A stretch of 64,000 nt of DNA, from contig NZ_CP028105.1 of assembly GCF_003019675.1 (NCBI RefSeq), forward strand, positions 2,310,282 to 2,374,281. The letters run 5' to 3'. Position 1 is the stretch's first letter. Each line of letters starts with the position of its first letter. Below are positions 44,762 through 64,000 of this stretch, one piece after another. A program made the translations under genes and the position numbers. Origin of the DNA: Fusobacterium ulcerans (GTDB lineage: Bacteria > Fusobacteriota > Fusobacteriia > Fusobacteriales > Fusobacteriaceae). The notes beneath the pieces were generated by a model. The model was not told where the DNA came from, searched no databases, and saw only the letters and a program-made list of their open reading frames with translations.

Positions 44762-45194
44762 GTACCTAAAAATAAATTTAAAATGTATATAAAAATTAAA
44801 AAGCAAGATAATTTTTAAAAAATAAATAAAACTAAGTTATGAAATATACTATACTTTTTTAATAAGAGATACTAAAGAGGGAAATATGGTGTAAATACAG
44901 AAATTTTAATCAATATACTAAAAAATAAAAAACAGCAAAAGAAAAGAAATTATATAAAAAATAGCAGGTTCAATTAAAAACTATTTTACAAAGAAAAAAT
45001 AAAAATATGGAAGAAAAAATGAGAGAAGGGAAATATAGAAAAACAAATAAAGTATGATGAAATATATAAAAAATTAATAATTGACATGTAGAAAAAGAAA
45101 AAAATTACACAAGAGAAGAGAAAAGGAAAGATGCCTAAAAGAGAGAGGTAAAAAAATGACTCCTTAAAAAATGGGGAGTTAGGAGGTGTAAATA

Positions 45195-45411
45195 TTCGCA
45201 TTATTACAAAAAGGCGTCCTGTAGAAATCTTTTTCAAAAAAATAATCCGTGAAGCTTTTTAGAATTATAGATCAGTATAGGAAAATAATACTACTAAAAT
45301 AGAATATTGTCAATACTAAAAAAACCTATAATTTGACATTTTTAAGAAATGTTAGAACGATTTTATTGAGTTTTGGAAGAGAAAAAGTTCTCATTATTGT
45401 AATAATGCGAA
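45195..45411. other. Putative invertible promoter module 1
   Basis: TTCGCATTATTACAA at 45195-45209 is repeated in perfect inverse form at 45397-45411 (15 bp). The enclosed DNA contains a near-consensus minus-strand promoter. The right-hand repeat is itself part of a long hairpin (45382-45417). The module lies 288 bp upstream of the first gene of the polysaccharide operon. Its promoter faces away from that operon as sequenced. Function as an inverton is inferred from this architecture. Confidence 0.6.
45285..45313 (-). promoter_or_regulatory. Strong sigma-70 promoter inside inverted-repeat module 1
   Basis: On the minus strand TTGACA (complement of 45308-45313), exactly 17 bp, then TATTAT (complement of 45285-45290). 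It reads leftward, where there is no gene, so in this orientation it has no evident coding target. Confidence 0.75.
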
Positions 45412-45418
45412 CTTTTTT
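45382..45418. terminator. Long hairpin with A and T tracts at the right end of module 1
   Basis: AAAAAGTTC-T-CATTATT pairs with AATAATG-C-GAACTTTTT (16 pairs, one T/C mismatch). It resembles a bidirectional terminator but also contains the right inverted repeat. Confidence 0.6.
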
Positions 45419-47009: not shown

Positions 47010-47010
47010 A

Positions 47011-48207
47011 ATGGAAGTGACTTTATTGATTGATAATTTTATTCCAGATCTAGGAGCAGCATCTTTTAGATTTGAAAGTGTAGTAAAAGAGTTAGCAGAC
47101 AGAGGATATAAAGTTAAAATAATAGCTTCATATCCCAATAGAATAGAATTAAAAAATTTTAAAGAGTTTGAATATAAAGATATTGAAATATATAGAATAT
47201 GTAAAACAAAGCTAGCAGAAAATATATTAAGAAGAGCATTTAGATATTTTAAATTTTTCTATGAAGCTATAAAAATTGGGAAAAAAATAGCAAAAAAATC
47301 TGATATTGTAATAGCTACTAGTCCACAACTATTAGTAGGAGTAGCAGGGGCAATAATATCAAGGCTAAACAAGAAAGTTTTTTTAATAGATATAAGAGAC
47401 TTATGGCCAGATATAGTCTTAGATATGGGAGTGATGAAGAAATATAATCCTATATATTTATTTTTAAAAGTACTGGAGAAATATATGTATAGACAAAGTA
47501 AATTTTTAGTATACAATTCACCAGGATTCTATAACTACTTGATATCTAAGTATGATGAAGAAAAGATGAAATTGATAACTAACGGAATAGATGACTATAT
47601 TTTAAACTATTTTAAAAATAAAGAAATAAAAATAGAGGAAAAGGACAAATATAAAATTTTATATGCTGGAAATATCGGAATAGCTCAAGATATAAGAATT
47701 CTAATAGATTTAGCAGAAAAATATAGAACTAAAATAGAAATTATCATTATTGGAAAAGGCAGCCAGGAATCAATAATAAGAGATTTAATTAAAGAAAAAC
47801 AAATAACAAATGTCTATTTAATACCGTCAGTTCCAAGAAATAAATTATTAGAAAAATATGAGGAAGCTGACATATTATTTTTACAATTAAAAGATATTAA
47901 AATGTTCGAGAAAACGATTCCATCAAAAATATTTGAATACTTAGCTTCACAAAAACCTATTATTTATGGAGTAGAAGGTGTTGCTAAAACAATACTTAAA
48001 GAAGAATTTAATAGAAAATATTATTTTAAAGCTAACAATATTGAAGATTTAATAGGAACTTTTGAAAATTTAATAAAAGATATTGCAAAAAATAATTATG
48101 TAAAACCTGACTTAGAAGTATTAACTAATAATTATTCAAGAAAAATGCTAAGTAAAAAATATGTAGATAAAATTGAAAAAATCTATGAAAAAAATAAGTT
48201 TGAGTAA
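47011..48207 (+). CDS. Glycosyltransferase family 4 (WbuB/WcaI-like)
   Basis: 398 residues from the ATG at 47011 (GGGAAGGGAAG upstream). A GT-B retaining glycosyltransferase: N-terminal acceptor domain opening MEVTLLIDNFIPDLGAASFRFES, IDIRDLWPDIVLDMG as in L-fucosamine transferases of the WbuB kind, and a C-terminal donor domain with YAGNIGIAQDI and a PSKIFEYLASQKPIIYG motif carrying the usual phosphate-binding Glu nearby. Cytoplasmic face. The sugar donor is unknown. Confidence 0.88.
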   Translation: MEVTLLIDNFIPDLGAASFRFESVVKELADRGYKVKIIASYPNRIELKNFKEFEYKDIEIYRICKTKLAENILRRAFRYFKFFYEAIKIGKKIAKKSDIVIATSPQLLVGVAGAIISRLNKKVFLIDIRDLWPDIVLDMGVMKKYNPIYLFLKVLEKYMYRQSKFLVYNSPGFYNYLISKYDEEKMKLITNGIDDYILNYFKNKEIKIEEKDKYKILYAGNIGIAQDIRILIDLAEKYRTKIEIIIIGKGSQESIIRDLIKEKQITNVYLIPSVPRNKLLEKYEEADILFLQLKDIKMFEKTIPSKIFEYLASQKPIIYGVEGVAKTILKEEFNRKYYFKANNIEDLIGTFENLIKDIAKNNYVKPDLEVLTNNYSRKMLSKKYVDKIEKIYEKNKFE

Positions 48208-48231
48208 AAAATATTTATTAGGGAGTTTAAA

Positions 48232-49029
48232 ATGCTAGAAATTTCTATAATAATTCCAACATGCAAACCAGATTATTATATTTGGGAATGTTTAGATTCA
48301 ATAAAAAATCAATCTCTAGACAGAGTTTTTTTTGAAGTATTAATAATATTAAACGGAGATAAAGAACCATATTTTACAGAAATTAAAAATTATATAAAAA
48401 AAAATGAGTTAAATAATTTTAAATTAATTTATTCTAAAGAAAAAGGTGTTTCTAATGCGAGAAATATAGGTATTGAAATGTCTCAAGGAGATTATATTGC
48501 ATTTATTGATGATGATGATTATATAAGTAAAAATTATTTATTAAACTTCGAGAAAATTAAATCTGAAGATTCTTTATGTATTGCTAATTTTATTAACTTT
48601 AAGAAAAAATATGTAGTTTTGAAAGAAATAAAATATAAAATTAATGATTCAACAAGTTCATTAAATAAATATAGAAAAATATTTTCATATATTGGTGGAA
48701 AAATTATTTCAAAGAAAATTATTGAAAATATATTTTTTGATACGAATTTAAAAAATGGGGAAGATTCTTTATTTATGGTAGAAATAAGTAAAAATATAAA
48801 ATATATTAAAACAGGAGATCAAGATACTATTTATTATAGAAGAGTAAGAAATAATTCAGCAAACTTTAAAAAAAGAAAAAAAATGGAAATTATAAAAAAT
48901 AGTTATGGACAAATAAAAAAATATATTTCTTTTTATCATAACAATCAATATGATAAAATGTTTATTTTTATTAAAATAATGGCTGTTATAAAGGGAATGT
49001 TTGTAAGTATTTTTAGGAGAAAAATATGA
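48232..49029 (+). CDS. Glycosyltransferase family 2
   Basis: 265 residues, GT-A fold. ISIIIPTCKPDYYIWECLDSI opens the nucleotide-binding domain, GVSNARNIGIEMSQGDYIAFIDDDDYIS contains the DDD metal/donor site, and NGEDSLFMVEIS is the typical acceptor-region acidic motif. Inverting enzyme adding one residue to the lipid-linked repeat. Very A/T-rich, like its next two neighbours. Overlaps the following gene by 4 bp. Confidence 0.88.
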   Translation: MLEISIIIPTCKPDYYIWECLDSIKNQSLDRVFFEVLIILNGDKEPYFTEIKNYIKKNELNNFKLIYSKEKGVSNARNIGIEMSQGDYIAFIDDDDYISKNYLLNFEKIKSEDSLCIANFINFKKKYVVLKEIKYKINDSTSSLNKYRKIFSYIGGKIISKKIIENIFFDTNLKNGEDSLFMVEISKNIKYIKTGDQDTIYYRRVRNNSANFKKRKKMEIIKNSYGQIKKYISFYHNNQYDKMFIFIKIMAVIKGMFVSIFRRKI

Positions 49030-50096
49030 TTTATTTTATTAATTTTTTATTAAGTGTTTTATATTTCTATTCACTAAAACGATATAAAGATTTAACTTTT
49101 TTTATGTATTTTCCTATATTAATATTATGGACAATGATTATAGGATTGCAATTTGGAGTAGGAACAGATTACTTTAACTATTTAAGAATTTATAATAATC
49201 CTAATTATTTAGAGTTATATTTTAGAAAAAAAGAATATATATTTTATTTTTATATAAAATTTATAAAATTTTTTTTCATAGAAGGGCAATCATTTTTCAT
49301 TATAACATCCTTTTTAGAGAATTTAATATTTTATATTTATTTAAAAACTTTATTAAAAAACAAAATAATCAATTTAAAAAAATTATGGATATTTATTTTT
49401 TTGTTTTTATGCTTTGGAACAACATTTTATAATCAAACAAATGGGATAAGACAATATTTTAATATATATTTATTGATAATAATGAGTGTTTTTATAATAA
49501 ATAAAAATTTTCTATATTATAATATCATATTTTTTATTGGATTAAATATACATAGGAGTTTTCTTTTTTTATATCCTCTTTATTTTATAAATTTTATAAT
49601 AAAAAAGATTAATAAAAAAACTTTTATAATTTTTATAATTTTAGTTTTAATACTAAATTTCTTACCTATCGTTAAAGTTATAAAAGAGATTATAAAATTT
49701 GTTCCAAGATATAAGCATTATGTATATTATGATTATTTTTCAGAAATAACTTTGAAAAATAAAATAACAAAAATGATTTTTGTTCCATTTTATTTAGAAA
49801 GTGCAAAATTAATTGATAATATAAAAAATGAAAAAAAAGCTTTAATACTTAGATGGGGAATATTTGGATTTATAATAAGAATATTTTGTTTGAAAATAAC
49901 TGTATTAAATAGAATAGGAGAATATTTTGTTCTTTTGAGTTTATTTCCAATATATTTTTTAATAGAAAATTACATAGAAAAAAATAGCAAATTTAAATTA
50001 TTTATATTATTTTTTATGATACTAGGACTTTTTGTAACAAAAACTATTATTTTTCCTAAAGGAGAATATTTATATAATTCTTATTTATTTAATTAA
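49026..50096 (+). CDS. EpsG-like polysaccharide polymerase (Wzy candidate)
   Basis: 356 residues with about ten membrane segments. The FGVGTDYFNYLRIY loop and TNGIRQYFNIYLLI helix are hallmarks of the EpsG family, which polymerises repeat units at the outer face of the inner membrane. Such polymerases diverge rapidly and this one is extremely A/T-rich, consistent with horizontal exchange. Starts in an ATGA overlap with the GT2 gene. Wzy role is inferred from fold type and operon position with a flippase downstream. Confidence 0.8.
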   Translation: MIYFINFLLSVLYFYSLKRYKDLTFFMYFPILILWTMIIGLQFGVGTDYFNYLRIYNNPNYLELYFRKKEYIFYFYIKFIKFFFIEGQSFFIITSFLENLIFYIYLKTLLKNKIINLKKLWIFIFLFLCFGTTFYNQTNGIRQYFNIYLLIIMSVFIINKNFLYYNIIFFIGLNIHRSFLFLYPLYFINFIIKKINKKTFIIFIILVLILNFLPIVKVIKEIIKFVPRYKHYVYYDYFSEITLKNKITKMIFVPFYLESAKLIDNIKNEKKALILRWGIFGFIIRIFCLKITVLNRIGEYFVLLSLFPIYFLIENYIEKNSKFKLFILFFMILGLFVTKTIIFPKGEYLYNSYLFN

Positions 50097-50116
50097 TTTT
50101 AATTTGAAGGAGAAAG

Positions 50117-51313
50117 ATGAGAAAAAAAGTATTGTATATATCATCGCTTATAGTAAAAAAATCTAGTTCAGCTTCAATACGAAATACTGGTTTGGTAACA
50201 GGGTTAATAAAAAATAAAATTAATATAGAAATTTTAACTGTGAAGTATTTAGATGAACTGGAAGATGAATATTTAAAAAGCAAATTAGCAAATATTAAGA
50301 TTCATAATGTTGATTTAAAAATATTAAATAAATATTTAAATAAAAGATTTAAAGCAAAAAATGTAGAAAATAACATTTTTAAAAATATATTTAAAATAAT
50401 AAAAAATTTAATAAAAGAAATTTATTTTTTTCCTGATGTTGATAAAGAATGGATAACAGAATTTAATAAATTAAATATAGACTTTGAAGAATATGATCTA
50501 ATAGTTTCCTCTTCAGATACTAAAACTTCACATTATATAGGAGAAAAAATAAAAAAATTATATCCAAATATAATTTGGTTTCAAATTTGGGGAGATCCTT
50601 GGAGTAGTGATATAGGATTAAGCAAATTAAAAAAAATTAGAGCCAAATTTAAGGAAAAAGAGTTACTAAAAAAAGCAGATAGAATATTTTATGTATCTCC
50701 TTTTACACTAAACGATTTGAAAAATAAGTATCCAAAATTTAGTAATAAAATGAAATACATTCCAAGAGGTTATTTAGAAGAAGTTAAAGATAGTTCTAAG
50801 AGCGAAAGAGATAAAATTATTATAACATATACAGGAGTTTTGAATAAAAATAGAAATATATTGCATTTTTTAAAATTATTAAAAGAGTATAATGATAAAA
50901 ATTTAAAGAATATAGAATTTAATATATATGGAAATATAGATGATAGTCTTTTAAAGAATATAACAGTTTTTTCTTTTGTTTATTATAAAGGAAATGTTTC
51001 ATTTGAAGAAATAAAAGAAGTTTATAAAAAATCAGATTATTTATTGTTTATTGATAATGGAAATAATACTACTCAAATACCTGGGAAAATATATGATTAC
51101 TTAGGTACAAATAAAAAAATAATTTGTTTATTTAAAAATAAAAATGAGATATATAACTATTTTAAAAGTGAACTTCGGCTATTAACTTATCAAGAGAATG
51201 AAATTGATTTATTAGAAATTTTAAATTCTCCAGAAAGAGTAGTGGATAAAAGATTTTCAAATGATATTATTGCTAAAAAATTAATTGAGTATTATATGGA
51301 GATGAAAAAATGA
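50117..51313 (+). CDS. Glycosyltransferase, GT4-like
   Basis: 398 residues. MRKKVLYISSLIVKKSSSASIRNTGLVTG opens a GT-B N-domain; IIWFQIWGDPWSSDIG and FYVSPFTLNDLKNKYP mark the interdomain region, and the C-domain has ITYTGVLNKNRNI, and a QIPGKIYDYLGTNKKIICLF donor-binding segment. AAGGAG before ATG. The end overlaps wecB by 4 bp. Donor unknown. Confidence 0.82.
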   Translation: MRKKVLYISSLIVKKSSSASIRNTGLVTGLIKNKINIEILTVKYLDELEDEYLKSKLANIKIHNVDLKILNKYLNKRFKAKNVENNIFKNIFKIIKNLIKEIYFFPDVDKEWITEFNKLNIDFEEYDLIVSSSDTKTSHYIGEKIKKLYPNIIWFQIWGDPWSSDIGLSKLKKIRAKFKEKELLKKADRIFYVSPFTLNDLKNKYPKFSNKMKYIPRGYLEEVKDSSKSERDKIIITYTGVLNKNRNILHFLKLLKEYNDKNLKNIEFNIYGNIDDSLLKNITVFSFVYYKGNVSFEEIKEVYKKSDYLLFIDNGNNTTQIPGKIYDYLGTNKKIICLFKNKNEIYNYFKSELRLLTYQENEIDLLEILNSPERVVDKRFSNDIIAKKLIEYYMEMKK

Positions 51314-52404
51314 AAGTAGGATTAATATTTGGAACAAGACCTGAAGCAATAAAAATGTCTCCAGTGTATCATGAACTTAAAGGAAATGGAATAGATGTAA
51401 AAGTTGTAGTGACAGGTCAACATAAAGAAATGCTATATCAGGTATTAGATCTATTTGAAATAAAACCTGATTATGATTTAGAGATAATGAAGCAGGGACA
51501 GGGACTTTCAGAACTTACAGGAAGATTGATGTTGGAACTGGATAAAATAGTGAAAAAAGAAAAGTTTGACTATATCTTAGTTCAAGGAGATACAACATCA
51601 GTTCTCACAGGAGCATTAACAGCTTTCTATAATCAAATACCAGTGGGGCATATAGAAGCTGGACTTAGAACAGGAGATATATACTCTCCATTTCCAGAGG
51701 AAGCAAATAGAAAACTAGTTGGAAATATAGCTGATATCCACTTTGCACCTACAGATGTAAATGTAGATAACTTGCTGAGAGAAAATTATCCAAAAGAGAA
51801 GATAATAAAATGTGGGAACACAGTTATAGATGCTCTTTACTGGGTAAAGAAAAATAAGAATAAAGATATAGAAGAGATAAAGAAAAAGTATGGAGTAAAT
51901 GATAAAAAATATATTCTCATAACAATGCACAGAAGAGAAAACTGGGGTAAACCAATGGAAGAAACTCTAAGAGCAGTCAGAGATTATCTGGAGAAACATG
52001 AAAATATTTACTTAGTCTTTCCAATGCATTTAAATCCTTTAGTTAGAGATACAGCGCATAGAGTGTTAGATGGATTTGAAAGGAAAATTTTAATAGAACC
52101 TTTGGAGTATCTAGAATTTATAGCAATAATGGATGGAGCTCATTATATAATGACAGATTCGGGAGGAGTACAAGAAGAAGCACCAAGCTTAGGAAAGCCA
52201 ACACTTGTACTAAGAGATACAACAGAGAGGCCAGAAGCAATAGATGCAGGAACAGCAAAACTTACAGGAACAAAGTATGAAGATGTAATAAAAGATATGG
52301 AGCTATTAGAAGAAGAAACATATGAAAAGATGTCCAAAGCTAATAATCCATATGGAGATGGAAAAACATCAGAAAGAATAAGAAAATATTTAGAAACTAT
52401 CTAG
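51310..52404 (+). CDS. wecB: UDP-N-acetylglucosamine 2-epimerase
   Basis: 364 residues, full length. Converts UDP-GlcNAc to UDP-ManNAc in the cytoplasm. GTRPEAIKMSPVYHEL, GQHKEML, VQGDTTSVLTGALTAFY, HIEAGLRTGDIYSPFPEEANRK, THRRENWG-type (MHRRENWG) and DSGGVQEEAPSLGKPTLVLRDTTERPEA signatures are all intact. With the adjacent dehydrogenase it supplies UDP-ManNAcA. Higher GC than the glycosyltransferases before it. Confidence 0.96.
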   Translation: MKVGLIFGTRPEAIKMSPVYHELKGNGIDVKVVVTGQHKEMLYQVLDLFEIKPDYDLEIMKQGQGLSELTGRLMLELDKIVKKEKFDYILVQGDTTSVLTGALTAFYNQIPVGHIEAGLRTGDIYSPFPEEANRKLVGNIADIHFAPTDVNVDNLLRENYPKEKIIKCGNTVIDALYWVKKNKNKDIEEIKKKYGVNDKKYILITMHRRENWGKPMEETLRAVRDYLEKHENIYLVFPMHLNPLVRDTAHRVLDGFERKILIEPLEYLEFIAIMDGAHYIMTDSGGVQEEAPSLGKPTLVLRDTTERPEAIDAGTAKLTGTKYEDVIKDMELLEEETYEKMSKANNPYGDGKTSERIRKYLETI

Positions 52405-52424
52405 TTGACTTGGAGGAAGAAAAA

Positions 52425-53669
52425 ATGAACACACTTTTAAAGAAAGCAGAAGAAAAAGATTTAAAAATTACAATATTGGGAATGGGATATATAGGCCTTC
52501 CAACAGCAATAGCATTTGCAAGAGCTGGATTTACAGTAAATGGATTTGATGTAAATAAAAAAGTTATAGAAACTTTAAAAAATGGACATATCCATATAGT
52601 AGAACCAGATCTTCAGGAAGCTTTTGAAGAAGCTTTGGGAAGTGGGAGATTACTTCCTACGGATAAACTAGAAAAATCAGATGTATTTATAATAGCAGTA
52701 CCAACACCATTTAAAAAAGAACATGAAGAAAAAATAGCAGATCTATCATATGTAGGAAGCGGAGCAAAAGAAGTAGCTGAGGTATTGGAAGAGAATAATC
52801 TGGTTATACTGGAATCAACAGTTCCTCCAATGACAACAAAACTAATGACAGATATATTAGAAAGAGAATCAGGAATATCAAGAGATAAATTTATGACAGT
52901 TCATTGTCCAGAGAGAGTATTACCAGGAAAGATACTATATGAACTTGAGCATAATGACAGGATAATAGGAGCTGAAAGAAAAGAAGCAGCTGAATATACT
53001 AAGGTAATATATGAAGCAATGGTAAAAGAGGGAACATGCTATATAACAGATGATATAACAGCAGAAATGTGTAAATTAGTAGAGAATACTTTCAGAGATG
53101 TAAATATAGCTTTTGCAAATGAACTGTCAGTAATATGTGACAAGCTTAATATAAATGTTTTTGAACTTATAAAACTGGCAAATAAGCATCCAAGGGTAAA
53201 TATACTGACACCAGGAGCTGGAGTAGGAGGACATTGTCTTGCAGTAGATCCATGGTTTATAGTAGAGAAATTCCCTAAAGAAGCAAATGTAATAAGAGAA
53301 GCAAGATTAATTAATGATTTTAAACCAAGATTTATAGTAAATAAAGTAGATGAAATACTTAATGGGAATAAAGAATTGACAGTTGGAGTATTAGGATTAG
53401 CATATAAACCAGATATAGATGATCTTAGAGAGTCACCAGCAATGGAGATAGCAGAAATATTGAGGGATAAAGGATATGAAGTAATAGCTTGTGAACCAAA
53501 TGTAAATAAAGAAGAAGTGGATGGATTCAAGCTTTATTCTTTAGAAGAAATTCTAAAAAAAGCTGATTATTTAGTATTAGCACAGGGGCATAAAGAGTTT
53601 AAAGAAAATATACAACTATTAAAAACTAAAAAAATATACGACTGTTTAGGAATAATAAATCTAATTTAG
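52425..53669 (+). CDS. wecC: UDP-N-acetyl-D-mannosamine dehydrogenase
   Basis: 414 residues from the ATG at 52425 (TTGGAGGAAG upstream; the TTG at 52410 is in that site). Oxidises UDP-ManNAc to UDP-ManNAcA with two NAD+. NAD-binding ITILGMGYIGLPTAIAFARAGF, VPTPFKKE, STVPPMTT, CPERVLPGKILYELEHNDRIIG and the catalytic GAGVGGHCLAVDPWF (with the active Cys) are present, then VGVLGLAYKPDIDDLRESPA. Follows wecB directly, so the polymer probably contains ManNAcA. Confidence 0.95.
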   Translation: MNTLLKKAEEKDLKITILGMGYIGLPTAIAFARAGFTVNGFDVNKKVIETLKNGHIHIVEPDLQEAFEEALGSGRLLPTDKLEKSDVFIIAVPTPFKKEHEEKIADLSYVGSGAKEVAEVLEENNLVILESTVPPMTTKLMTDILERESGISRDKFMTVHCPERVLPGKILYELEHNDRIIGAERKEAAEYTKVIYEAMVKEGTCYITDDITAEMCKLVENTFRDVNIAFANELSVICDKLNINVFELIKLANKHPRVNILTPGAGVGGHCLAVDPWFIVEKFPKEANVIREARLINDFKPRFIVNKVDEILNGNKELTVGVLGLAYKPDIDDLRESPAMEIAEILRDKGYEVIACEPNVNKEEVDGFKLYSLEEILKKADYLVLAQGHKEFKENIQLLKTKKIYDCLGIINLI

Positions 53670-53767
53670 TTAATTTTTTTATTACATCTAAGATTCTTTA
53701 CAGAAAAGAAAGAAATATGCACATAAAGCTTCTAATATATTGCATCTATAAAGATAATGATAAATTT

Positions 53768-53855
53768 ATGAAGGAGTACAGGAAGAAATACCAAGAGCGG
53801 GCATTTGTATTAATAACTTGTATAAATATGGAAGACTTCTAAAAAATATCTAAGT
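53768..53855 (+). pseudogene. Possible small wecB-like relic in an intergenic gap
   Basis: In the 243-bp gap 53670-53912, bases around 53773-53794 read GGAGTACAGGAAGAAATACC, nearly the same as the GVQEEAP-coding segment of wecB (about 52167-52188), and translate as EGVQEEIPRAG before decaying. A 25-codon alternative frame starts at the ATG at 53768. No other content is recognised in the gap. Confidence 0.3.
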
Positions 53856-53912
53856 ATCTAATAATTTAGAGAAAAATTATAATAAAAAAGTATTAGAAAA
53901 AGGAGAAAAAAA

Positions 53913-54947
53913 ATGCGAATTATTTTATGTGACAATAGAATGGAAGGACATCATAAGCCATATTTTTCTACACTTTTAAAGTTAAATTATACCAAATTAA
54001 AGTATGTAGAATTAGATTTAGCTCCTTCACTAAAAAAGAATTTTTTTAAATATTTCCTCTCTAGAAGGAAACTAATTAAAGAGTTTTTAAAAAATAATGA
54101 AGAGAATGATGATGTTATAGTACATTTTTTAACTTTAGATTTTATTTATTCATATATGTTTTTAAAAAAAAGTATAAATGCAATTGGAACTTTACATCAA
54201 GTTCCTAAAAGTTTATTAAAAAAGATATTTTTAAAGATTTTTTCTAAAAAAATAAGATTAATAATCGTACATTCAGAATTTCTAAAAGAAAATTTAAAAA
54301 GAATGGGAATAGAAAATGTAAGAGTAGTAAATTATCCTAGTTTTTATAACTATTCAAAAATTGGGAATAAAAATGAATTAAGAATAAAAAATAAAATAGA
54401 TAGTGAAAAAATAGTATTGAGTTGTTTAGGAGGAACAAGGAAGGATAAAGGATTAAATATTTTGTTAGAAAGTCTGAAATATATAAATATAAATTTTAAA
54501 AAAAATCTTTTAATAAATATAGTTGGAAAAGAAGAAGAATTTAAAAAAGAGTATATAGAGAAAGAATTAAAAGATATACCAAATAGAATAATACTAGAAA
54601 AAGTAAGTGATGATGAGTTTATGGAAAATATTCTAATAACTGATTTAATGATTATGCCATATTTAAAATCTTTTGGTGGGGTAAGTGGTCCAATGACAGA
54701 AGCAATTGTTAATAAAATACCATGTATAGCTCCAAAAGAATTAGAAATTGGAAAAATTATAATAGAAAAAAATATAGGAGAAGTATTTAATTGTGAAGAC
54801 CCTATTGATTTAGCAAGAGTAATAGAAGAAACAATAAAAAAAATAAATAGTTATTACAATACAAATTATCATACTAAATTAACTAAAGAAAATTTTTTAA
54901 AAAAATATGATGAAATATATAAAAATATCTGTGAAAATAAAAATTAG
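53913..54947 (+). CDS. Glycosyltransferase, GT4-like
   Basis: 344 residues. The opening IILCDNRMEGHHKPYFSTLL resembles GT-B acceptor domains, and the donor domain shows LSCLGGTRKDKGLNILLESL and FGGVSGPMTEAIVNKIPCIAPKE. Very A/T-rich. AAAAGGAG before the ATG. It follows the gap after wecC, so it may be a later insertion into the operon; sugar donor unknown. Confidence 0.82.
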   Translation: MRIILCDNRMEGHHKPYFSTLLKLNYTKLKYVELDLAPSLKKNFFKYFLSRRKLIKEFLKNNEENDDVIVHFLTLDFIYSYMFLKKSINAIGTLHQVPKSLLKKIFLKIFSKKIRLIIVHSEFLKENLKRMGIENVRVVNYPSFYNYSKIGNKNELRIKNKIDSEKIVLSCLGGTRKDKGLNILLESLKYININFKKNLLINIVGKEEEFKKEYIEKELKDIPNRIILEKVSDDEFMENILITDLMIMPYLKSFGGVSGPMTEAIVNKIPCIAPKELEIGKIIIEKNIGEVFNCEDPIDLARVIEETIKKINSYYNTNYHTKLTKENFLKKYDEIYKNICENKN

Positions 54948-54990
54948 AAAATTATTTGAAAAAATAATTAAATTTTAAGGAGAGATTTTA

Positions 54991-56070
54991 ATGAAAAAGA
55001 TAGCATTAATAACAGGAATAACAGGACAAGATGGCTCATATCTTGCAGAATTTCTTTTAGATAAAGAATATGAAGTACATGGAATAATAAGAAGAGCTTC
55101 AACTTTTAATACAGGAAGAATAGAACATCTATATATAGATGATTTAATTGAAGATATGCATAAAGAAAGAAAAATATACCTTCATTATGGAGATATGACA
55201 GATTCTATGAGTATAACAAGATTAATAAGAGAAATAAAACCAACAGAAATATATAACCTTGCAGCACAATCTCATGTACAGGTATCTTTTGAAGTACCAG
55301 AGTATACAGCTGATTCAAATGCAGTAGGAGTATTAAGAATACTTGAAGCAGTAAGATTTTTAGGAATGGAAAAAACTTGCAGGATATATCAAGCTTCCAC
55401 TTCAGAATTGTTTGGAAGAGTACAGGAAGTACCACAAAAAGAAACAACACCATTTTATCCAACATCACCATATGCAGTAGCAAAGCAGTATGGATATTGG
55501 ATAGTAAAAAACTATAGAGATGCCTATGATATGTATGCAGTAAATGGAATACTATTCAATCATGAAAGTGAAAGAAGAGGAGAAACATTTGTAACAAGGA
55601 AAATAACATTAGCAGCAGCAAGAATATCAAAAGGATATCAGAAAAAACTATACTTAGGAAATCTGAATGCGCTTAGAGACTGGGGATATGCAAAAGACTA
55701 TATTGAATGTATGTGGCTTATGATGCAGCAAGATAAACCAGAAGATTTTGTAATAGCAACAGGAGAACAATACTCCGTGAGAGATTTTTGTAATATAGCA
55801 TTTAAAGAAGTAGGAATAGAAATAGAATGGTGTGGAGAAGGTATAAACGAAAAAGGAATAAATAAAGTAACAGGAGAAACGGTAATAGAAGTAGATCCAA
55901 AATACTTTAGACCTTCAGATGTAGAAACATTACTAGGAGACCCAACAAAAGCAAGAACAGTACTAGGATGGAATCCAAGAAAAACATCATTTAAGAATTT
56001 AGTAAAAATAATGGTAGAACATGATTTAGGATTTGTGGAAAAAGATCATTTTTTAAAAGTAAGGGGATAA
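54991..56070 (+). CDS. gmd: GDP-mannose 4,6-dehydratase
   Basis: 359 residues, full length. Converts GDP-D-mannose to GDP-4-dehydro-6-deoxy-D-mannose. SDR Rossmann motif [66 protein letters not shown], the YxxxK pair in [12 protein letters not shown], and [12 protein letters not shown] are diagnostic. AAGGAGAG before ATG. Feeds the next gene's reductase or epimerase-reductase. Confidence 0.97.
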
Positions 56071-56073
56071 GTC

Positions 56074-57012
56074 ATGATAAATTTAAAAGAAAAGCAAATA
56101 ATAGTAACAGGTGGAGCAGGTTTTTTAGGATCTCATGTCATTCAAAAATTATTGGAAAGAGGTTGTAAGAAAGAAAATATTTTTATTCCAAGAAGTAAAA
56201 ATTATAATTTAACTAAAGAAAGAGATGTAAAAAAATTATATGAAGATTTTAAAGCAGATATAGTTATTCATATTGCAGCAGATATAGGAGGAATAGGATA
56301 TAGTAAAACACACCCAGCATCTCAATTTTATAATAATTTAATGATGAATACTTTAATACAAGATTTAGCATATAAAAATAGAGTGGAAAAATTTGTAGGA
56401 ATAGGAACTGTATGCTCTTATCCTAAGTTTGCTCCAGTTCCATTTAAAGAAGAAGATTTATGGAATGGATATCCTGAAGAAACAAATGCAGCTTATGGAT
56501 TAAGCAAAAAGATGATGTTAGTGCAGTCACAAGCCTATAGAGAACAATATAATTTTAATGCAATTCATTTGTTGATGATCAATTTATATGGACCAAAAGA
56601 TAACTTTTCTTTGGAATCATCACATGTAATTCCAGCATTAATAAGAAAAATGTTAAAAGCAAATGAAGAAAATTCAGATATTGAAGTATGGGGAGATGGA
56701 AGTGCATCAAGAGAATTTATTTTTGTTGAGGATGCAGCAGAGGCAATAATACTTGCAACAGAAATGTATGATGGAAAAGAACCTGTAAACATAGGAAATG
56801 GTCAAGAAATTTCAATAAAAGAATTAATAGGAATTTTAGCAAATTTATTAAAATTTCAAGGTAAAATTATTTGGGATAAAACAAAACCAAATGGACAACC
56901 TAAAAGAAGATTGGATGTTTCAAAGGCTAAAAAATATTTTGATTTTAAAGCAAAGATGGAATTAAAAGAAGGGTTAAATGAAACGATAAAATGGTATTTG
57001 GAGAATAATTGA
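56074..57012 (+). CDS. GDP-L-fucose-synthase-like NAD(P)-dependent epimerase/reductase
   Basis: 312 residues, extended SDR. VTGGAGFLGSHVIQKLLERG binds cofactor, HIAADIGGIGYSKTHPASQFYNNLMMN and GIGTVCSYPKFAPVPFKEEDLWNGYPEETNAAYGLSKKMMLVQ match GDP-fucose synthase (Fcl), with the Tyr-Lys pair in AAYGLSKK, and DNFSLESSHVIPALIRK follows. Next to gmd it most likely makes GDP-L-fucose, but related enzymes make GDP-colitose or other 6-deoxyhexoses. Four bases after gmd; its TGA overlaps the flippase ATG. Confidence 0.9.
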   Translation: MINLKEKQIIVTGGAGFLGSHVIQKLLERGCKKENIFIPRSKNYNLTKERDVKKLYEDFKADIVIHIAADIGGIGYSKTHPASQFYNNLMMNTLIQDLAYKNRVEKFVGIGTVCSYPKFAPVPFKEEDLWNGYPEETNAAYGLSKKMMLVQSQAYREQYNFNAIHLLMINLYGPKDNFSLESSHVIPALIRKMLKANEENSDIEVWGDGSASREFIFVEDAAEAIILATEMYDGKEPVNIGNGQEISIKELIGILANLLKFQGKIIWDKTKPNGQPKRRLDVSKAKKYFDFKAKMELKEGLNETIKWYLENN

Positions 57013-58310
57013 TGAATAGATTTGACATTTTAAAAAAACAAGTGTCGTTTGGAATGATATATAAAATATTAAGTATGGGATTAAGTTATTTTTCAATTCC
57101 TTTATTTTTAAAATATTTAGGTCAGCAGGATTATGGGTTATGGATGACAATTTTTTCAATTGTAAGTTGGATATATACATTTGATTTAGGAATAGGAAAT
57201 GGACTTAAAAATAAGCTTACAGAAAGCTTAACTAAAAAAAATTATAATGAGGCTAGAGAATATATAACTACTGGATATATTGTTTTAGGAATAATAGCCA
57301 TATGTATTCTTACTTTAGGATTAATTGGAATTAAAGTAATAGATATTGGAAAATTTTTAAATATAGATTTTTATAGTGAAAATTATATAAAATTAATATT
57401 TGAGATAGTATTTGCAATGACTATTTTAAATTTTATAGTTTTTTTATATAAAACTTTTTATCTTTCTATTCATAATAGTTCTATTATGAATCTGGGTAAT
57501 TTTTTATTTCAATTACTCTTTATTATTTCACTATATATCCTTAATTATTATAATAAAGTTTCATTAATAACAGTATCAATAATTTATCCTGGAATAAATT
57601 TAATATTAGGATTATTTTTTACAAAAAAGTTTTTTAATAAATATAAAGAATTGACTCCCAGTATTAAGAGTTTTAGTAAAAAAAAAATAAAAGGGATAGG
57701 AAGTATAGGAATAAGTTTTTTTATAATACAAATATCAGTGCTCTTCATACTTACTGTTGACAATTTATTGATAACAAAATATGTAGGAACAGATGCTGTA
57801 GCAAGTTATAGTATAGTTTCTAAATTGTTTCAGAGCTTTATAGTATTGGAGTCAATAATTTCAGTTCCTATGTGGACTTTATTTCTTGATTCATATATAA
57901 AAAAAGATAAAAAATGGATACTAAATATATTTAAAAAAATTAATATATTATTTCTATTTTTAATAATAGTAATAATAGTAGTTATATTTTTAGCACCTTA
58001 TATAATTAAAATATGGATAGGGCGAGAAATATTTATTCCTAAATATCTTATTTTATTATGGGGAATATTTGTATTAAATAGAGTATATGGAGATATACAT
58101 ATGATTTTTATAAATGGAACAGGAAAAATTCATTTACAAATGTGGCTATATGTTTTAGGAGGTATCATTAATATCCCTCTTTCTATATATTTTATAAGGG
58201 ATTTAGACATGGGAAGTAGTGGAGCGATTCTTGGAACGAATATATGCATGTTACCATTGGCAGTAATAATGCCCATACAAGCACACTTTATCATAAAGAA
58301 AATGAAATAA
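57012..58310 (+). CDS. Polysaccharide flippase (Wzx-like, MOP superfamily)
   Basis: 432 residues with about 12-14 membrane segments. Opens with FDILKKQVSFGMIYKILSMGLSYFSIPLFLKYLG and DYGLWMTIFSIVSWIYTFDLGIGNGLKNKLTE, typical of the RfbX/Wzx group. Flips the undecaprenyl-linked repeat to the periplasmic face. Coupled to the preceding gene by TGATG overlap. Together with the EpsG-like protein, it supports a Wzx/Wzy-dependent pathway. Confidence 0.9.
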   Translation: MNRFDILKKQVSFGMIYKILSMGLSYFSIPLFLKYLGQQDYGLWMTIFSIVSWIYTFDLGIGNGLKNKLTESLTKKNYNEAREYITTGYIVLGIIAICILTLGLIGIKVIDIGKFLNIDFYSENYIKLIFEIVFAMTILNFIVFLYKTFYLSIHNSSIMNLGNFLFQLLFIISLYILNYYNKVSLITVSIIYPGINLILGLFFTKKFFNKYKELTPSIKSFSKKKIKGIGSIGISFFIIQISVLFILTVDNLLITKYVGTDAVASYSIVSKLFQSFIVLESIISVPMWTLFLDSYIKKDKKWILNIFKKINILFLFLIIVIIVVIFLAPYIIKIWIGREIFIPKYLILLWGIFVLNRVYGDIHMIFINGTGKIHLQMWLYVLGGIINIPLSIYFIRDLDMGSSGAILGTNICMLPLAVIMPIQAHFIIKKMK

Positions 58311-58326
58311 TGAGGTAAATAAAGAA

Positions 58327-60054
58327 ATGGTAGAAAATATATTACAAAAATATAATAAATGGGCAAAAATAGAATTTATTACTATAAATGAAAAACTAGA
58401 AGTAAAAGAATTAAAAGATGAAGAAATAAAAGATAGTTTTTATAAATACCTTGAGTTTGGAACAGGTGGAATGAGAGGAATAATGGGGATGGGAACTAAT
58501 CGTATGAATATATATATGATTAGAAAAGCTACTCAAGGATTTTCAAATTATTTAATCAATTCAAGTGGTGAATTCGGAAAGAATAAAGGTGTTGTAATTG
58601 CATATGACTGCCGGATTAATTCATATGAATTTGCTTTGAATTCAGCATTAGTACTGTGTGCCAATGGAATAAAAACATATCTGTTTTCTTCATTAAGAAG
58701 TACTCCAGAACTTTCATTTGCTGTAAGAGAACTTGAATGTCAGGCTGGAATAATGATAACAGCTTCACATAATCCTAAAGAATACAACGGATATAAAGTA
58801 TATTGGAAAGATGGAGGACAATTAGTAGAGCCTCAAGCTTCTGGGATAATAGAAGAAGTAAATAAAACAGATGAATTTGAAGATGTAAAGATTGTAGCTC
58901 AAGAGGAAGCAGAAAAGTCAGGGTTATTAAATATTTTAAATGATGAATTAGACAGTAAATATTTAGAAAAGGTAAAGAAAGAATCTATTTTAAAAGATTT
59001 ATCTAATAAAGAGAATTTTAAATTAGCATATTCTCCTCTTCATGGAACAGGTGGAAGACCAGTAAAAAGACTGTTAAATGAATTAGGATATAAAAATGTA
59101 TATATAGTTGAAGCGCAGAAGAAGCCAGATGGAGAATTTCCAACTTGTTCATATGCCAATCCAGAAGAAAAAAATGTATTTGATCTTTCAATAAAGTTAG
59201 CAGATGAAATAGGAGCTAAAGTATGTTTAGCAAATGACCCTGATGCTGACAGAACAGGAATGATGGTAAAAGAAAAAAATGAATGGATATATCTTAATGG
59301 AAATCAGATAGGAATGCTTCTTTTAAAATATATTTTAGACAATAAAAAAGATATACCTAAAAATGGAGCAGTAGTTACAACAATAGTTTCTACACCAATA
59401 TTAGATAAGATAACAGGAGAAAGAAATTTAAAAGTATTTAGAACTCTTACAGGATTTAAATATATAGGAGAAAAGATAAGAGAATTTGAAGAAGGAAAAT
59501 ATGATAATTCTTTTGTATTTGGAATGGAAGAATCTATTGGATATCTAAAAGGAACCTATGTAAGAGATAAAGATGGAATACTTGGAGTAATGCTTTTAAC
59601 TGAAATGGTAGCATACTTTGAAAGCATAGGAACATCTTCAGTGAAAGAACTAAGAAAACTCTATGATAAATATGGTTGGTATAGTGAAATAACATATCCT
59701 GTAACAAGAGAAGGAATACAAGGAACAGAAGAAATAAAAAAGATGATGGAAGAACTTAGAAAAAGAGATTTAAAAGTTCTTTTAGATAAAAAGATAAATA
59801 TTGTAAGAGACTATAAGTTGAAAAAAGAAAAGAACTATTTAGATAATTCAGAATCAGAATTACTTCTTCCAAAGTCAGATGTTATTCAATATATTTTAGA
59901 AGATGAAACATACATAACAGTAAGACCATCAGGAACAGAACCAAAGATAAAATATTACATCTATACTAAAGGAAAAAATAAGAAAGAAGCAGATGAAAAA
60001 CTAGAGAATGTATTAAATGATTTTAAAGGATATATGGAATCACTTTTGAACTAG
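58327..60054 (+). CDS. Phosphohexomutase (phosphoglucomutase/phosphomannomutase)
   Basis: 575 residues. Interconverts hexose-6-phosphate and hexose-1-phosphate. Catalytic Ser147 lies in MITASHNPKEYNGYKVYW, the metal loop is NDPDADRTG, and the sugar loop EESIGYLKG; TVRPSGTEPKIKYY is the phosphate-binding domain. The length fits the alpha-PGM type, but placement directly before a mannose-1-phosphate guanylyltransferase suggests mannose-1-phosphate supply in vivo. Confidence 0.92.
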   Translation: MVENILQKYNKWAKIEFITINEKLEVKELKDEEIKDSFYKYLEFGTGGMRGIMGMGTNRMNIYMIRKATQGFSNYLINSSGEFGKNKGVVIAYDCRINSYEFALNSALVLCANGIKTYLFSSLRSTPELSFAVRELECQAGIMITASHNPKEYNGYKVYWKDGGQLVEPQASGIIEEVNKTDEFEDVKIVAQEEAEKSGLLNILNDELDSKYLEKVKKESILKDLSNKENFKLAYSPLHGTGGRPVKRLLNELGYKNVYIVEAQKKPDGEFPTCSYANPEEKNVFDLSIKLADEIGAKVCLANDPDADRTGMMVKEKNEWIYLNGNQIGMLLLKYILDNKKDIPKNGAVVTTIVSTPILDKITGERNLKVFRTLTGFKYIGEKIREFEEGKYDNSFVFGMEESIGYLKGTYVRDKDGILGVMLLTEMVAYFESIGTSSVKELRKLYDKYGWYSEITYPVTREGIQGTEEIKKMMEELRKRDLKVLLDKKINIVRDYKLKKEKNYLDNSESELLLPKSDVIQYILEDETYITVRPSGTEPKIKYYIYTKGKNKKEADEKLENVLNDFKGYMESLLN

Positions 60055-60067
60055 GAGGAAAAGGAAG

Positions 60068-61141
60068 ATGTTAACAGCAATTATTATGGCAGGAGGAAGT
60101 GGAGAGAGGTTCTGGCCATTATCAACACCAGAAAGGCCAAAGCAACTTCTAAAAATATTTTCAGATAAAACTATGATAAGAGAAACTGTTGACAGGATAC
60201 TTCCTATAATAGAAGCAGAAAATATATTTATAGCGACGAATATCATACAAGCAAAAGAGATAGAAAAAGAATTAAGCGATATTCCTAAAGAAAATATAAT
60301 AATAGAACCAGCTTTTAAAGATACAGCAGCAGCAATAGGATATTCTTCTTTGATAATAGAAAATAGATTTAAAAATAGATTAAAAGATGGAGAAAAGCTA
60401 GAAGTAGTAGTACTAGCTTCAGATCATCTAATTAAAGAGGAAGAAGAATTTAGAAAAGTCATACTAATTGCAGCAAAAGAAGCAAAAGAAAATGGAATGA
60501 TAGTTACTTTAGGAATAAAACCAGACAAACCAGAAACAGGATATGGATATATAGAAGTAAAATATGATGAAATAGAACTTAATTCTATATATAAAGTAAA
60601 AAGATTTAGAGAAAAACCAAGTCAGGAATTAGCTGAAAGTTATCTTTCAAGTGGAAAATATCTTTGGAATAGTGGAATGTTTATATTTACGATAGATACT
60701 ATATTTAAAAATTTTGAAGTATTGATGGAAGAACATTCAACAATATTTAAAGAAATAGAAAAAGAATTTAAAGAAAATTTAACAGGAGAAGAACTTAGCA
60801 ACAAAGTAAAGAGATACTTTGATAAATTTGAAAAAATATCAATAGATTTTGGAATAATGGAATATTCAAAAAATATCCGAGTAATACCAGTAGATATAGG
60901 TTGGAATGATATAGGAAGCTTTAATGCATTTGATGAGATATTTGAAAAAGATGAAAATGGAAATGTAGTGAGAGGAAAAGAGATAAGAGAATTAGATTCA
61001 AAAAACAATATAGTAATATCAGATGATTTGAATATTTCATTATTAGGAATAGAAAATTTAGTAATAGTAAAAAAAGATAAAGAACTTTTAATATCAAAGA
61101 AAAATAAGACACAGGAAATAAAAAAAATTTTAAATAGATAA
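60068..61141 (+). CDS. manC: Mannose-1-phosphate guanylyltransferase
   Basis: 357 residues. Makes GDP-mannose from Man-1-P and GTP. TAIIMAGGSGERFWPLSTPERPKQ is the nucleotide-binding signature; ASDHLI, TGYGYIEV, FREKPS, LWNSGMFIF and VDIGWNDIGSF follow. The C-terminal cupin isomerase domain of long ManC proteins is absent, so phosphomannose isomerase must come from elsewhere. GGAGGAAAAGG before ATG. Confidence 0.94.
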   Translation: MLTAIIMAGGSGERFWPLSTPERPKQLLKIFSDKTMIRETVDRILPIIEAENIFIATNIIQAKEIEKELSDIPKENIIIEPAFKDTAAAIGYSSLIIENRFKNRLKDGEKLEVVVLASDHLIKEEEEFRKVILIAAKEAKENGMIVTLGIKPDKPETGYGYIEVKYDEIELNSIYKVKRFREKPSQELAESYLSSGKYLWNSGMFIFTIDTIFKNFEVLMEEHSTIFKEIEKEFKENLTGEELSNKVKRYFDKFEKISIDFGIMEYSKNIRVIPVDIGWNDIGSFNAFDEIFEKDENGNVVRGKEIRELDSKNNIVISDDLNISLLGIENLVIVKKDKELLISKKNKTQEIKKILNR

Positions 61142-61159: not shown

Positions 61160-61471
61160 ATGACAGAAAAAGAGTTTTTAACCTTATATAAGGAAAGAAG
61201 GAATCTAAAAAGCATAAGAGAAGCAAAAGAAAGATTAGATTCTTTCTGGAAAGCTCTTTTTGATGTTTTAGAAGAAGAAGAAAAAGTAATAATAAAAGAC
61301 TGGGGAATATTTGAAAAGAAAGAAGTAAAACCAAGAAAGATATTAAATCTAGCTACTAGAGAAATGATGATAACAGAAGAAAAGAAAGTTATCAAATTTA
61401 AACCTAGAATGAAAATGATAGATAAAGTAAATGAACTCAATACTCTAATGGAGGAAGAATATGAACACTAG
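61160..61471 (+). CDS. HU/IHF-family DNA-binding-like protein
   Basis: 103 residues. Two N-terminal helices (REAKERLDSFWKALFDVL) followed by VIIKDWGIFEKKEVKPRKILNLATREMM and VIKFKPRMKMIDKVN, which match the GFGTFEVRERAARKGRNP...FKPGKALKDAVN frame of HU. The intercalating Pro is displaced in the arm (loss of RNP). It ends 11 bp inside the next HU-like gene. Such proteins bend DNA; here one sits at the end of a polysaccharide operon beside an inverted-repeat module. Role unknown. Confidence 0.8.
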   Translation: MTEKEFLTLYKERRNLKSIREAKERLDSFWKALFDVLEEEEKVIIKDWGIFEKKEVKPRKILNLATREMMITEEKKVIKFKPRMKMIDKVNELNTLMEEEYEH

Positions 61472-61742
61472 AGAATTTGTATCATATTACAAAAAATTGA
61501 GAAAAGAGCAGGATGAAACAATAGAATATGAAGAAGCAAGAGAAGAGATAGAAGAGATATTTAATCTTATAGCAGAAGTAATAGCTATGGATGAAGAGGT
61601 AAAATTTAAAAATAAAGGAACTTTCTCTCTTTTAAAAAGAAAAAAGAGAAGAATAGGCAGTCCAACTTCAAAAGAAGTGAGAGAAATAATTCCTAAAAAA
61701 ACAATAAAATTTGTACAATCAAAAATATTAGAAATAAGTTGA
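61461..61742 (+). CDS. Second, divergent HU/IHF-family protein
   Basis: 93 residues, overlapping the first HU-like gene by 11 bp with GGAGG before its ATG. EEAREEIEEIFNLIAEVIAM forms the helical part, and VKFKNKGTFSLLKRKKRRIGSPTSKEVREI with KTIKFVQSKILEIS the beta-arm and C-terminal helix. Translational coupling with its partner suggests a heterodimer like IHF. Stop codon lies 8 bp before the left inverted repeat of module 2. Confidence 0.75.
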   Translation: MNTREFVSYYKKLRKEQDETIEYEEAREEIEEIFNLIAEVIAMDEEVKFKNKGTFSLLKRKKRRIGSPTSKEVREIIPKKTIKFVQSKILEIS

Positions 61743-61751
61743 GAAAAAGAG

Positions 61752-61780
61752 TTCGCTTTTATGTATAAAGGCGAAGTTTT
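61752..61780 (+). terminator. Hairpin at the end of the polysaccharide operon
   Basis: 11-bp stem TTCGCTTTTAT / ATAAAGGCGAA, loop GT, followed by GTTTT. It is 9 bp after the last HU-like stop, so it could terminate the operon as well as form the left repeat. Confidence 0.5.
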
Positions 61781-61787
61781 AAAACCT

Positions 61788-61816
61788 TTGAAGGTAGATA
61801 AGTTAAAAACTTTAAT
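61788..61816 (+). promoter_or_regulatory. Weak possible promoter inside module 2
   Basis: TTGAAG, 17-bp spacer, TTTAAT, reading toward the MBOAT gene. A comparable minus-strand candidate (TTGTAA, 18 bp, TTTAAT) also exists, so direction cannot be decided by eye. Confidence 0.3.
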
Positions 61817-61938
61817 AAATAAAGTTAAAAAAATAATTCTAATAATATTTTTATTAAATTCTTAAATAAAGAACATTTACAAAAAATAAAGAGTTCTCTT
61901 TTATACATAAAAGCGAACACTTAAATCTTGGAGGAGTA

Positions 61939-63357
61939 ATGTTATTTAATTCATATGAGTTTATTTTCCTGTTTTTACCAATTACATTAATAATATATTT
62001 TACTTTAAATAGATATGGTAAAAATAATGTAGCTAAAGGATGGCTGGTAATAGCTTCCTTGTATTTTTATTCATATTTTCACCTTTCATATTTATATTTA
62101 ATTTTAACTTCAATAATAATAAATTATTTTATTGGAAATAAATTAAATCATAAAAGTTTGACTGGAAAAGAAAGAAAAATATGGATGATAGTAGGAGTAA
62201 TATTTAATTTAGGGTTATTAGGATATTTTAAATATTATGATTTCTTTGTAGAAAATATAAATACAGTATTTAGAACAAATTTTACCTTATTACATATACT
62301 GCTGCCATTAGGAATATCATTTTTTACATTTCAACAGCTTTCATTTATAATAGACAGTTACAATGAAAAAAGTATGAAATATGATTTTTTAAGTTATTGT
62401 CTATTTGTAACATTTTTTCCACAGTTAATAGCAGGACCAATAGTACTGCCAAATGAAATGCTTCCACAATTTGAAGATAAAAGAAATAAGGTGATAAATT
62501 ATGAAAATATGAATAGAGGACTATATATGTTTTCTATAGGACTAGCTAAAAAAGTAATATTAGCAGATACAATAGCAAATTTTGCAAATGCAGGATTTGA
62601 TCAAATGGAAACATTAAATATTATAGAAGCATGGATGACTTCAATATCATATACATTACAGCTATATTTTGATTTTAGTGGGTATTGTGATATGGCAATG
62701 GGAATAGCGCTGATGTTTAACATAATATTACCATTAAATTTCAATTCACCATATAAATCAGCAAATATACAGGAATTCTGGAAAAAATGGCATATGACAT
62801 TGGGAAGATTTATGACAAATTATTTATATATTCCACTTGGAGGAAATAGATTAGGAGAAAGAAAAACCCTAAGAAATCTATTTATAGTATTCATGGCAAG
62901 TGGAATATGGCATGGAGCAGGCTGGAACTTTGTTATATGGGGAGGCTTACATGGAATATGCATTCTAGTACATAGAATATGGAAAAATAGTGGAAGAAAG
63001 ATGAATAAATTACTAGGATGGTTTATAACAATAAATTTAGTAAATATATTTTGGGTATTTTTTAGAGCAGAAACATTAAGCGGAGCACTAAAAGTATTAA
63101 AAGGAATGTTAAAAATAAGAAGTTTAAAAGAAATGTTGAGTATCGAATATAAAACATTTCTTTATAATGATTTAGGAAATAAACTTTCTTTTTTCATTTT
63201 AGTTTTATCTGGAATAATAGTGTTATTTGGAAAAAATACAAAAGAAGAAGAGAAATTAAATAAAAAAATATTTTATTTTTTTAAAAGTATATTTTGTATA
63301 ACTTTAGGAATATTATTTTTGAATAGAATTTCAACATTTTTATATTTTAATTTTTAG
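61939..63357 (+). CDS. MBOAT-family O-acyltransferase (DltB/AlgI-like)
   Basis: 472 residues with about 11 membrane segments. FNSYEFIFLFLPITLIIYF opens the AlgI type; LPLGISFFTFQQLSFIIDSYN, FPQLIAGPIV, DFSGYCDMAMGIALMFNI, FWKKWHMTLG and SGIWHGAGWNFVIWGGLHG with the catalytic His325 are diagnostic. It transfers acyl (usually acetyl) groups across the membrane to an envelope polysaccharide. GGAGGAGTA before the ATG. The DltD/AlgX-like gene follows after 8 bp. Confidence 0.94.
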   Translation: MLFNSYEFIFLFLPITLIIYFTLNRYGKNNVAKGWLVIASLYFYSYFHLSYLYLILTSIIINYFIGNKLNHKSLTGKERKIWMIVGVIFNLGLLGYFKYYDFFVENINTVFRTNFTLLHILLPLGISFFTFQQLSFIIDSYNEKSMKYDFLSYCLFVTFFPQLIAGPIVLPNEMLPQFEDKRNKVINYENMNRGLYMFSIGLAKKVILADTIANFANAGFDQMETLNIIEAWMTSISYTLQLYFDFSGYCDMAMGIALMFNIILPLNFNSPYKSANIQEFWKKWHMTLGRFMTNYLYIPLGGNRLGERKTLRNLFIVFMASGIWHGAGWNFVIWGGLHGICILVHRIWKNSGRKMNKLLGWFITINLVNIFWVFFRAETLSGALKVLKGMLKIRSLKEMLSIEYKTFLYNDLGNKLSFFILVLSGIIVLFGKNTKEEEKLNKKIFYFFKSIFCITLGILFLNRISTFLYFNF

Positions 63358-63365
63358 GAGAAGAA

Positions 63366-64000
63366 ATGAAAAATAATGAGAAAAATATATTTATTATTAG
63401 GATATTTTTAATATTTATAGCAATTGGAATTTTAATAATTTTTAATTATTTAATTGATCCATTTCAACAATATAGAGTTCCTAAATTTTATACTCTTGCA
63501 AATTATCGTGAGAATGAAAGAGCTTTAAATTCAGGATTGATAAAAAACAGTGATTACGACTCCGTAATTATAGGGAGTTCAATGACTAGAAATTTTGATA
63601 CTAATTATTTAAATGAATTATTAGGATGGAAAAGTTTAAAATTAACAATGAGTTCAGCTTCACAAAAAGATATAGAAAAAACTTTAGGTTTTGTTAATAA
63701 AAATAGAAAGATAAATAATATTTTATTAGGGATAGATATTATAACTTTTTTTCAAAATGCCAATTCTGAAAGAGTAGCATTTCCAGAGTATATGTATGAT
63801 AAAAATTCTTTAAAAAACAATATTAAATATCTTTGGAATTTGACAGTATTAAAAGAAAGTATGAAAATAATAAAAATGAATTTTTTAGATAAAAAAAGTA
63901 TTGAAAAAACATTCCCATTAGGATACAGATATATATATTCAAAAGAAGAAGTTTTAAAAAATCAAAAAGGAGAGATATTAAATCATAATTACTCTTTGAA
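63366..64000 (+). CDS. DltD/AlgX-like SGNH-type protein, 3' end outside window
   Basis: 211 codons are visible from the ATG at 63366 (TTAGGAGAAG upstream), open to the last base. A single N-terminal membrane anchor (residues about 9-30, IFIIRIFLIFIAIGILIIF) is followed by a periplasmic domain with VIIGSSMTRNFDTNYLN, where the GSSM segment at 70-73 supplies the catalytic Ser in SGNH-like acyl-transfer partners. Next to an MBOAT gene, it most likely receives the acyl group and modifies polysaccharide. Full domain cannot be judged from the fragment. Confidence 0.82.
   Translation, partial: MKNNEKNIFIIRIFLIFIAIGILIIFNYLIDPFQQYRVPKFYTLANYRENERALNSGLIKNSDYDSVIIGSSMTRNFDTNYLNELLGWKSLKLTMSSASQKDIEKTLGFVNKNRKINNILLGIDIITFFQNANSERVAFPEYMYDKNSLKNNIKYLWNLTVLKESMKIIKMNFLDKKSIEKTFPLGYRYIYSKEEVLKNQKGEILNHNYSL

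Follow-up and report, generated by a model that had tools for sequence, protein, structure and literature searches.

The window analysed here is a stretch of 64 kb from the genome of Fusobacterium ulcerans. It contains a short inverted-repeat element of 168 bp (61751-61918) between a surface polysaccharide operon and a gene for an O-acyltransferase, and this position raises the question of whether, and in what manner, the element switches the acylation of the polysaccharide. As the initial annotation of the locus had described, a perfect inverted pair of 19 bp (61751-61769 and 61900-61918) encloses 130 bp. It was the sole perfect inverted pair of at least 19 bp at a distance of at most 300 bp in the window, and no inverted pair of that length and spacing was obtained in 40 first-order Markov simulations. 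The 19-bp arms are located inside two 26-bp imperfect palindromes, and each arm is therefore also a hairpin, or inverted repeat, in itself. The left palindrome, GTTCGCTTTTATGTATAAAGGCGAAG (61751-61776, GTTCGC-N14-GCGAAG), was matched at G000:C1:2372027-2372062 by the model of a site family described below. The right palindrome, GTTCTCTTTTATACATAAAAGCGAAC (61893-61918, GTTCTC-N14-GCGAAC), carries the core of the left site in inverted orientation. No RNA family was assigned to the element by Rfam, and an exact search with the 19-bp arm gave no match in genome and viral contig collections, from both of which close relatives may be absent.

The element starts 8 bp downstream of a TGA codon (61740-61742) and ends 20 bp upstream of an ATG codon (61939). 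These distances agree with those reported previously, but the stop codon is that of the second of two HU/IHF-like genes rather than of a polysaccharide gene. The two genes (61160-61471, PF00216 with E=1.7e-14 and weak similarity to IHF-alpha; 61461-61742, PF00216 with E=2.3e-9) are on the forward strand and follow the polysaccharide operon (45699-61141, forward strand), which encodes proteins from a sugar transferase to one of the mannose-1-P guanylyltransferase type. Downstream of the element, the putative controlled gene (61939-63357, forward strand) encodes an MBOAT O-acyltransferase of 472 aa (PF03062, E=4e-37) that is DltB-like, with a score below the NCBIfam cut-off. Its GGAGG ribosome-binding site (61930-61934, forward strand) is outside the element. 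It is followed by a gene for a partner protein of 350 aa in full length without a Pfam match (forward strand; 63366-64000 in the window, extending to 64418 beyond it). In another genome of the genus (G004), a relative of the MBOAT gene lies directly behind a flippase-like gene and is accompanied by neither the HU pair nor the inversion sites. The element is therefore not intrinsic to the MBOAT gene. Elsewhere in the window, a selenocysteine tRNA gene was found at 40209-40303, on which ARAGORN and Rfam agree.

When the genome was searched with a 199-bp query, a second copy of the module was detected at 271323-271520 on the reverse strand with 96% identity, together with many short matches to the arms. 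A site model of 38 bp, built from 32 sites, gave 113 matches in this genome (both strands of the palindrome counted), corresponding to 24 pairs and a few singles. The family consensus is a 26-bp palindrome, GTTCKC-N14-GMGAAC, and in the genome-wide list the two sites of the 61751-61918 element score 34.2 and 37.7 bits. Across four Fusobacterium genomes (this one and three relatives), 85 site pairs with spacings of 141-231 bp were identified, about 25 per genome; many of them are copies of one another, and counts over them are not independent events. The central 6 bp are the same in inverted orientation between partner sites in 84 of the 85 pairs, the 61751-61918 element included, and the core sequences vary from pair to pair. 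The mean identity of the 6-bp core was 5.98/6 within pairs, compared with 3.8/6 when partners were aligned as direct repeats and 4.3/6 between different pairs. Among 73 non-redundant pairs it was 5.97, against at most 4.71 of 6 in 20,000 permutations. Tyrosine recombinases need such matching inverted cores for strand exchange, and fixed hairpins would not yield them. These results support the assignment of the 61751-61918 element, by its sequence, to a genome-wide family of inversion elements. In the literature searched, outside subscription papers and preprints, we found no report of invertons or inversion-based phase variation in Fusobacterium; the inverton-survey papers examined do not mention the genus, and the family is apparently undescribed so far.

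Inversion was observed among sister elements. The first module of the window (45188, equivalent to G000:2355469), compared with the element at G000:912831, has flanks of 91% and 88% identity, and its interior is 95% identical only if flipped; the element at G000:287989 is oriented like the first module. Likewise, the interior at G000:2099436 is flipped relative to those at G000:2279885 and G001:1145038 (90-91% identity when flipped), a case of inversion in promoterless elements like 61751-61918. Identities in the wrong orientation were 73-83%, values inflated by AT-rich sequence and the free end gaps of the aligner; BLAST bit scores separated the orientations clearly (304-317 versus 35 or none, and 243 versus 34). 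Inversion is thus well supported for the family by sequence comparison. Three copies of the 61751-61918 element are known, namely those in the window, at 271 kb of the same genome, and at 1096378 of F. varium Fv113-g1. Because all three copies, from two species, share one orientation, we infer the inversion of this copy from that of its family. Reversed copies, asked for in the initial annotation, were found for sister elements and not for 61751-61918.

Interiors of the elements were scanned for sigma70 promoters, with the best score tested against shuffles. In 66 of the 85 elements, the best interior promoter had p<=0.05, mostly with the sequence TTGACW-17-TATAAT. Among elements with a promoter score of at least 8.5 and an assigned target (n=66), the promoter faces its target in 9 and is directed away in 57. 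The targets are mostly large autotransporter-like proteins, and also polysaccharide operons and HU-like genes. In the Pfam analysis of autotransporter-like targets, one was confirmed with PF03797 and two others had no Pfam match. Dozens of autotransporter-like genes are located behind invertible promoters, nearly all of which point away. The first module of the window (45194-45412), at the start of the polysaccharide operon, has paired sites at 45194-45219 and 45387-45412 and is inverted relative to the paralogous G000:912831. Its promoter, TTGACA-17-TATTAT (45285-45313), is on the reverse strand and points away from the operon. To judge from these sequence features, the first module is an invertible promoter of the same family that would at present be OFF for the polysaccharide operon. 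By promoter orientation, the operon at 287989 is also OFF and that at 912831 is ON. In F. varium, the operon containing the MBOAT module also begins with a promoter element, in which TTGACA-17-TATCAT points away by sequence.

By contrast with these promoter-bearing relatives, the 61751-61918 element has an interior (61777-61892, the part expected to flip) in which neither strand gave a sigma70-like promoter better than chance (best score 6.2, p=0.41). The other two copies are likewise promoterless (271-kb copy, p=0.57; F. varium, p=0.56). A scan of 61700-61938 gave nothing scoring at least 7.5, and hence no promoter between the end of the HU gene and the MBOAT start. The weak promoter-like elements noted on both strands in the initial annotation did not rise above chance in this analysis. 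An invertible promoter, in one orientation of which the MBOAT gene is transcribed from a weak interior promoter such as TTGAAG-17-TTTAAT (forward strand), would match both the majority of the family, with its TTGACT/A-17-TATAAT promoters, and the fimS-like geometry of the locus. However, the chance-level scores in all three copies and the loss of the TTGAAG-17-TTTAAT match in F. varium make this explanation unlikely. Since no promoter above chance is present inside, the most likely role of the switch is to gate transcription that reads through from the sugar operon. The earlier proposal of a switch for O-acylation is supported in part, by the inversion family with its matching cores, flipped sisters and recombinase pattern, but support is lacking for promoter-based control of acylation independently of synthesis.

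We consider it probable that the 61751-61918 element is an invertible terminator that at present permits read-through (ON), and that it is nested behind an invertible promoter currently in the OFF position; the state call, with the element read through and the operon promoter pointing away, is made tentatively. The promoterless element would act on transcription that enters it from the upstream polysaccharide/HU operon. As the element now lies, RNA polymerase would continue into the MBOAT and partner genes (ON, if the operon is transcribed). In the flipped orientation, the left site together with the AAAAAATAAAGAGTTC block (61881-61896, reverse strand), which has the same sequence in all three copies and would contribute both the U-tract and the 3' half of the hairpin, is predicted to form an intrinsic terminator right behind the HU genes and to silence the acylation genes. 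Control may thus be exerted in two tiers, the invertible promoter at 45194-45412 governing the whole operon and the invertible terminator governing its acylation tail. As the operon promoter element is OFF, the second switch would act only once the first is turned ON.

Predicted terminators were compared between the two orientations. With the element flipped, the left site gives AAAAGAGTTCGCTTTTATGTATAAAAGAGAACTCTTTA followed by TTTTTTG with a dG of -15.1 (-13.3 in F. varium), and no hairpin with a U-tract was detected by the same test in the present orientation. The hairpin and U-tail scores, which are predictions from a home-made scoring scheme, were -20.2 flipped versus -14.5 present in the window, -19.9 versus -14.5 in the 271-kb copy, and -18.4 versus -4.2 in F. 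varium. Eight other terminator-like sites chosen in the window scored -17 to -28. The present orientation in this genome retains a moderate hairpin (dG -13.4) followed by only four U; the contrast is therefore graded here and sharp in F. varium, and ON and OFF may be incomplete. The third polysaccharide operon of this genome, whose promoter element is that at 912831, likewise terminates in the HU pair and lacks a downstream MBOAT gene; where the other loci have the element, it has a fixed terminator scoring -20.0. Among 14 promoterless elements, 13 had a site-1 terminator with dG <= -4.4 in one orientation only. In the 14th (-2.3 versus -6.5) the threshold was likewise reached in one orientation only, so the pattern holds in all 14, although several contrasts are weak and palindromic sites produce one-sided terminators fairly easily by chance.

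The same hairpins could instead belong to an element that once inverted and has since become locked, or to a fixed pair that trims the operon transcript. The single orientation of all three copies in two species and the ability of the left site to fold as a hairpin at present as well are in keeping with this explanation. On the other hand, both sites score highly and have identical cores, whereas decay would erode core identity, and fixed hairpins leave the inverted matching of the cores unexplained. Fixed bidirectional terminators also fit poorly with a predicted strength that varies with orientation, as given above for the window and F. varium. We regard a locked or fixed element as rather improbable. 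The pair of simple hairpin terminators considered in the initial annotation is half right: the hairpins look real, but their predicted strength as terminators varies with orientation. A MITE with terminal inverted repeats, suggested by dispersed units of about 140-230 bp with inverted ends, was rejected as highly improbable because the interior is not conserved across copies: interiors are unrelated between groups while the ends remain core-paired, the pairs lie at gene starts or operon ends with flanks conserved together with the element, and no transposase with such ends was seen.

No recombinase gene adjoins the 61751-61918 element. Two single-domain tyrosine recombinases of 198 aa are encoded in the genome (G000:3280800 and G000:2057860), and R44, K68, H146-x-x-R149, H172, and Y181 are invariant across nine relatives. 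Among 61 genomes searched, members of this family scoring above 320 bits were found only in the four genomes with sites, and seven other Fusobacteriaceae genomes contain divergent relatives (163-293 bits) without sites. The four site-bearing genomes are probably one clade, and the pattern is therefore consistent with the recombinase assignment without proving it. From this phyletic pattern, the FimB-size 198-aa proteins are candidate invertases of the family, and such an enzyme, encoded elsewhere in the genome, may recombine the two 26-bp palindromic sites. Relatives with about 55% identity are present on F. varium plasmids. A 189-aa tyrosine recombinase beside hup was also considered as the driver and was rejected, as it is genus-wide and also occurs where the sites are absent.

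The four site-bearing genomes (G000, G001, G002, and G007) contain 55, 48, 58, and 56 PF00216 genes, compared with 15 in G003 and 4-7 elsewhere in the genus. Among the best-scoring matches listed for this genome, 16 of 26 non-canonical HU-like genes are within 8 kb of an element, against a rotation expectation of 3.1 (p=0.0004). HU/IHF-like genes are clustered near inversion elements and recombinases. As guesses, the proteins might be accessory bending proteins or feedback regulators. Speculatively, the whole family might form one coordinated phase-variation network in the F. varium/ulcerans group. Each genome would then possess some 25 or more invertible promoters and terminators, by which autotransporters and polysaccharide operons are controlled and, with few exceptions, kept OFF. 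The 48-58 HU/IHF-like paralogues, which lie beside recombinases and where switched operons end, might signal which operon is ON and bias recombination at the remaining ones, resulting in near-exclusive surface expression.

If the nested arrangement is true, two DNA flips would decide in a gut Fusobacterium first whether a surface sugar is made and then whether it is acylated, a matter relevant to the recognition of the cell by phages and by the host immune system. It would also expose a network of at least 20 invertons per genome, with candidate recombinases at hand, in a genus for which the literature searched describes no inversion-based phase variation. According to the F. varium genome paper, which does not mention inversion, 44 autotransporters are present and few of them are highly expressed; the family could explain the poor expression of most of them in culture. 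An orientation assay is feasible from existing long reads alone.

Known systems resemble the locus in part. In the fimS/FimB-FimE system of Escherichia coli, single-domain tyrosine recombinases of about 200 aa invert DNA between short repeats. The fimS element carries a promoter and adjoins its recombinases, and neither is the case for 61751-61918. Promoter-type invertons of the Fusobacterium family share the 26-bp sites and the genomes but carry TTGACW-17-TATAAT, which this element does not have. Mpi of Bacteroides fragilis is a single recombinase that acts on many scattered invertible regions, surface polysaccharide loci among them (PMC5903667). The first module (45194-45412) fits this capsule-promoter logic; however, Mpi is a serine recombinase, and 61751-61918 would be a terminator, not a promoter. 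The cwpV switch of Clostridioides difficile has an inversion region without a promoter, its tyrosine recombinase RecV is encoded far away, and an intrinsic terminator has been proposed where the left repeat meets the inverted region in the OFF form (PMC2784873, in which fimS is also summarised). Both cwpV and 61751-61918 are promoterless, lie a short distance upstream of a gene, and have a terminator predicted in one orientation at the upstream repeat, a likeness in working mode. The Fusobacterium element belongs to another phylum, has another repeat sequence and uses 26-bp palindromic sites common to about 25 elements. It further differs from cwpV in that its input would be read-through from an operon with its own invertible promoter and its target an O-acyltransferase.
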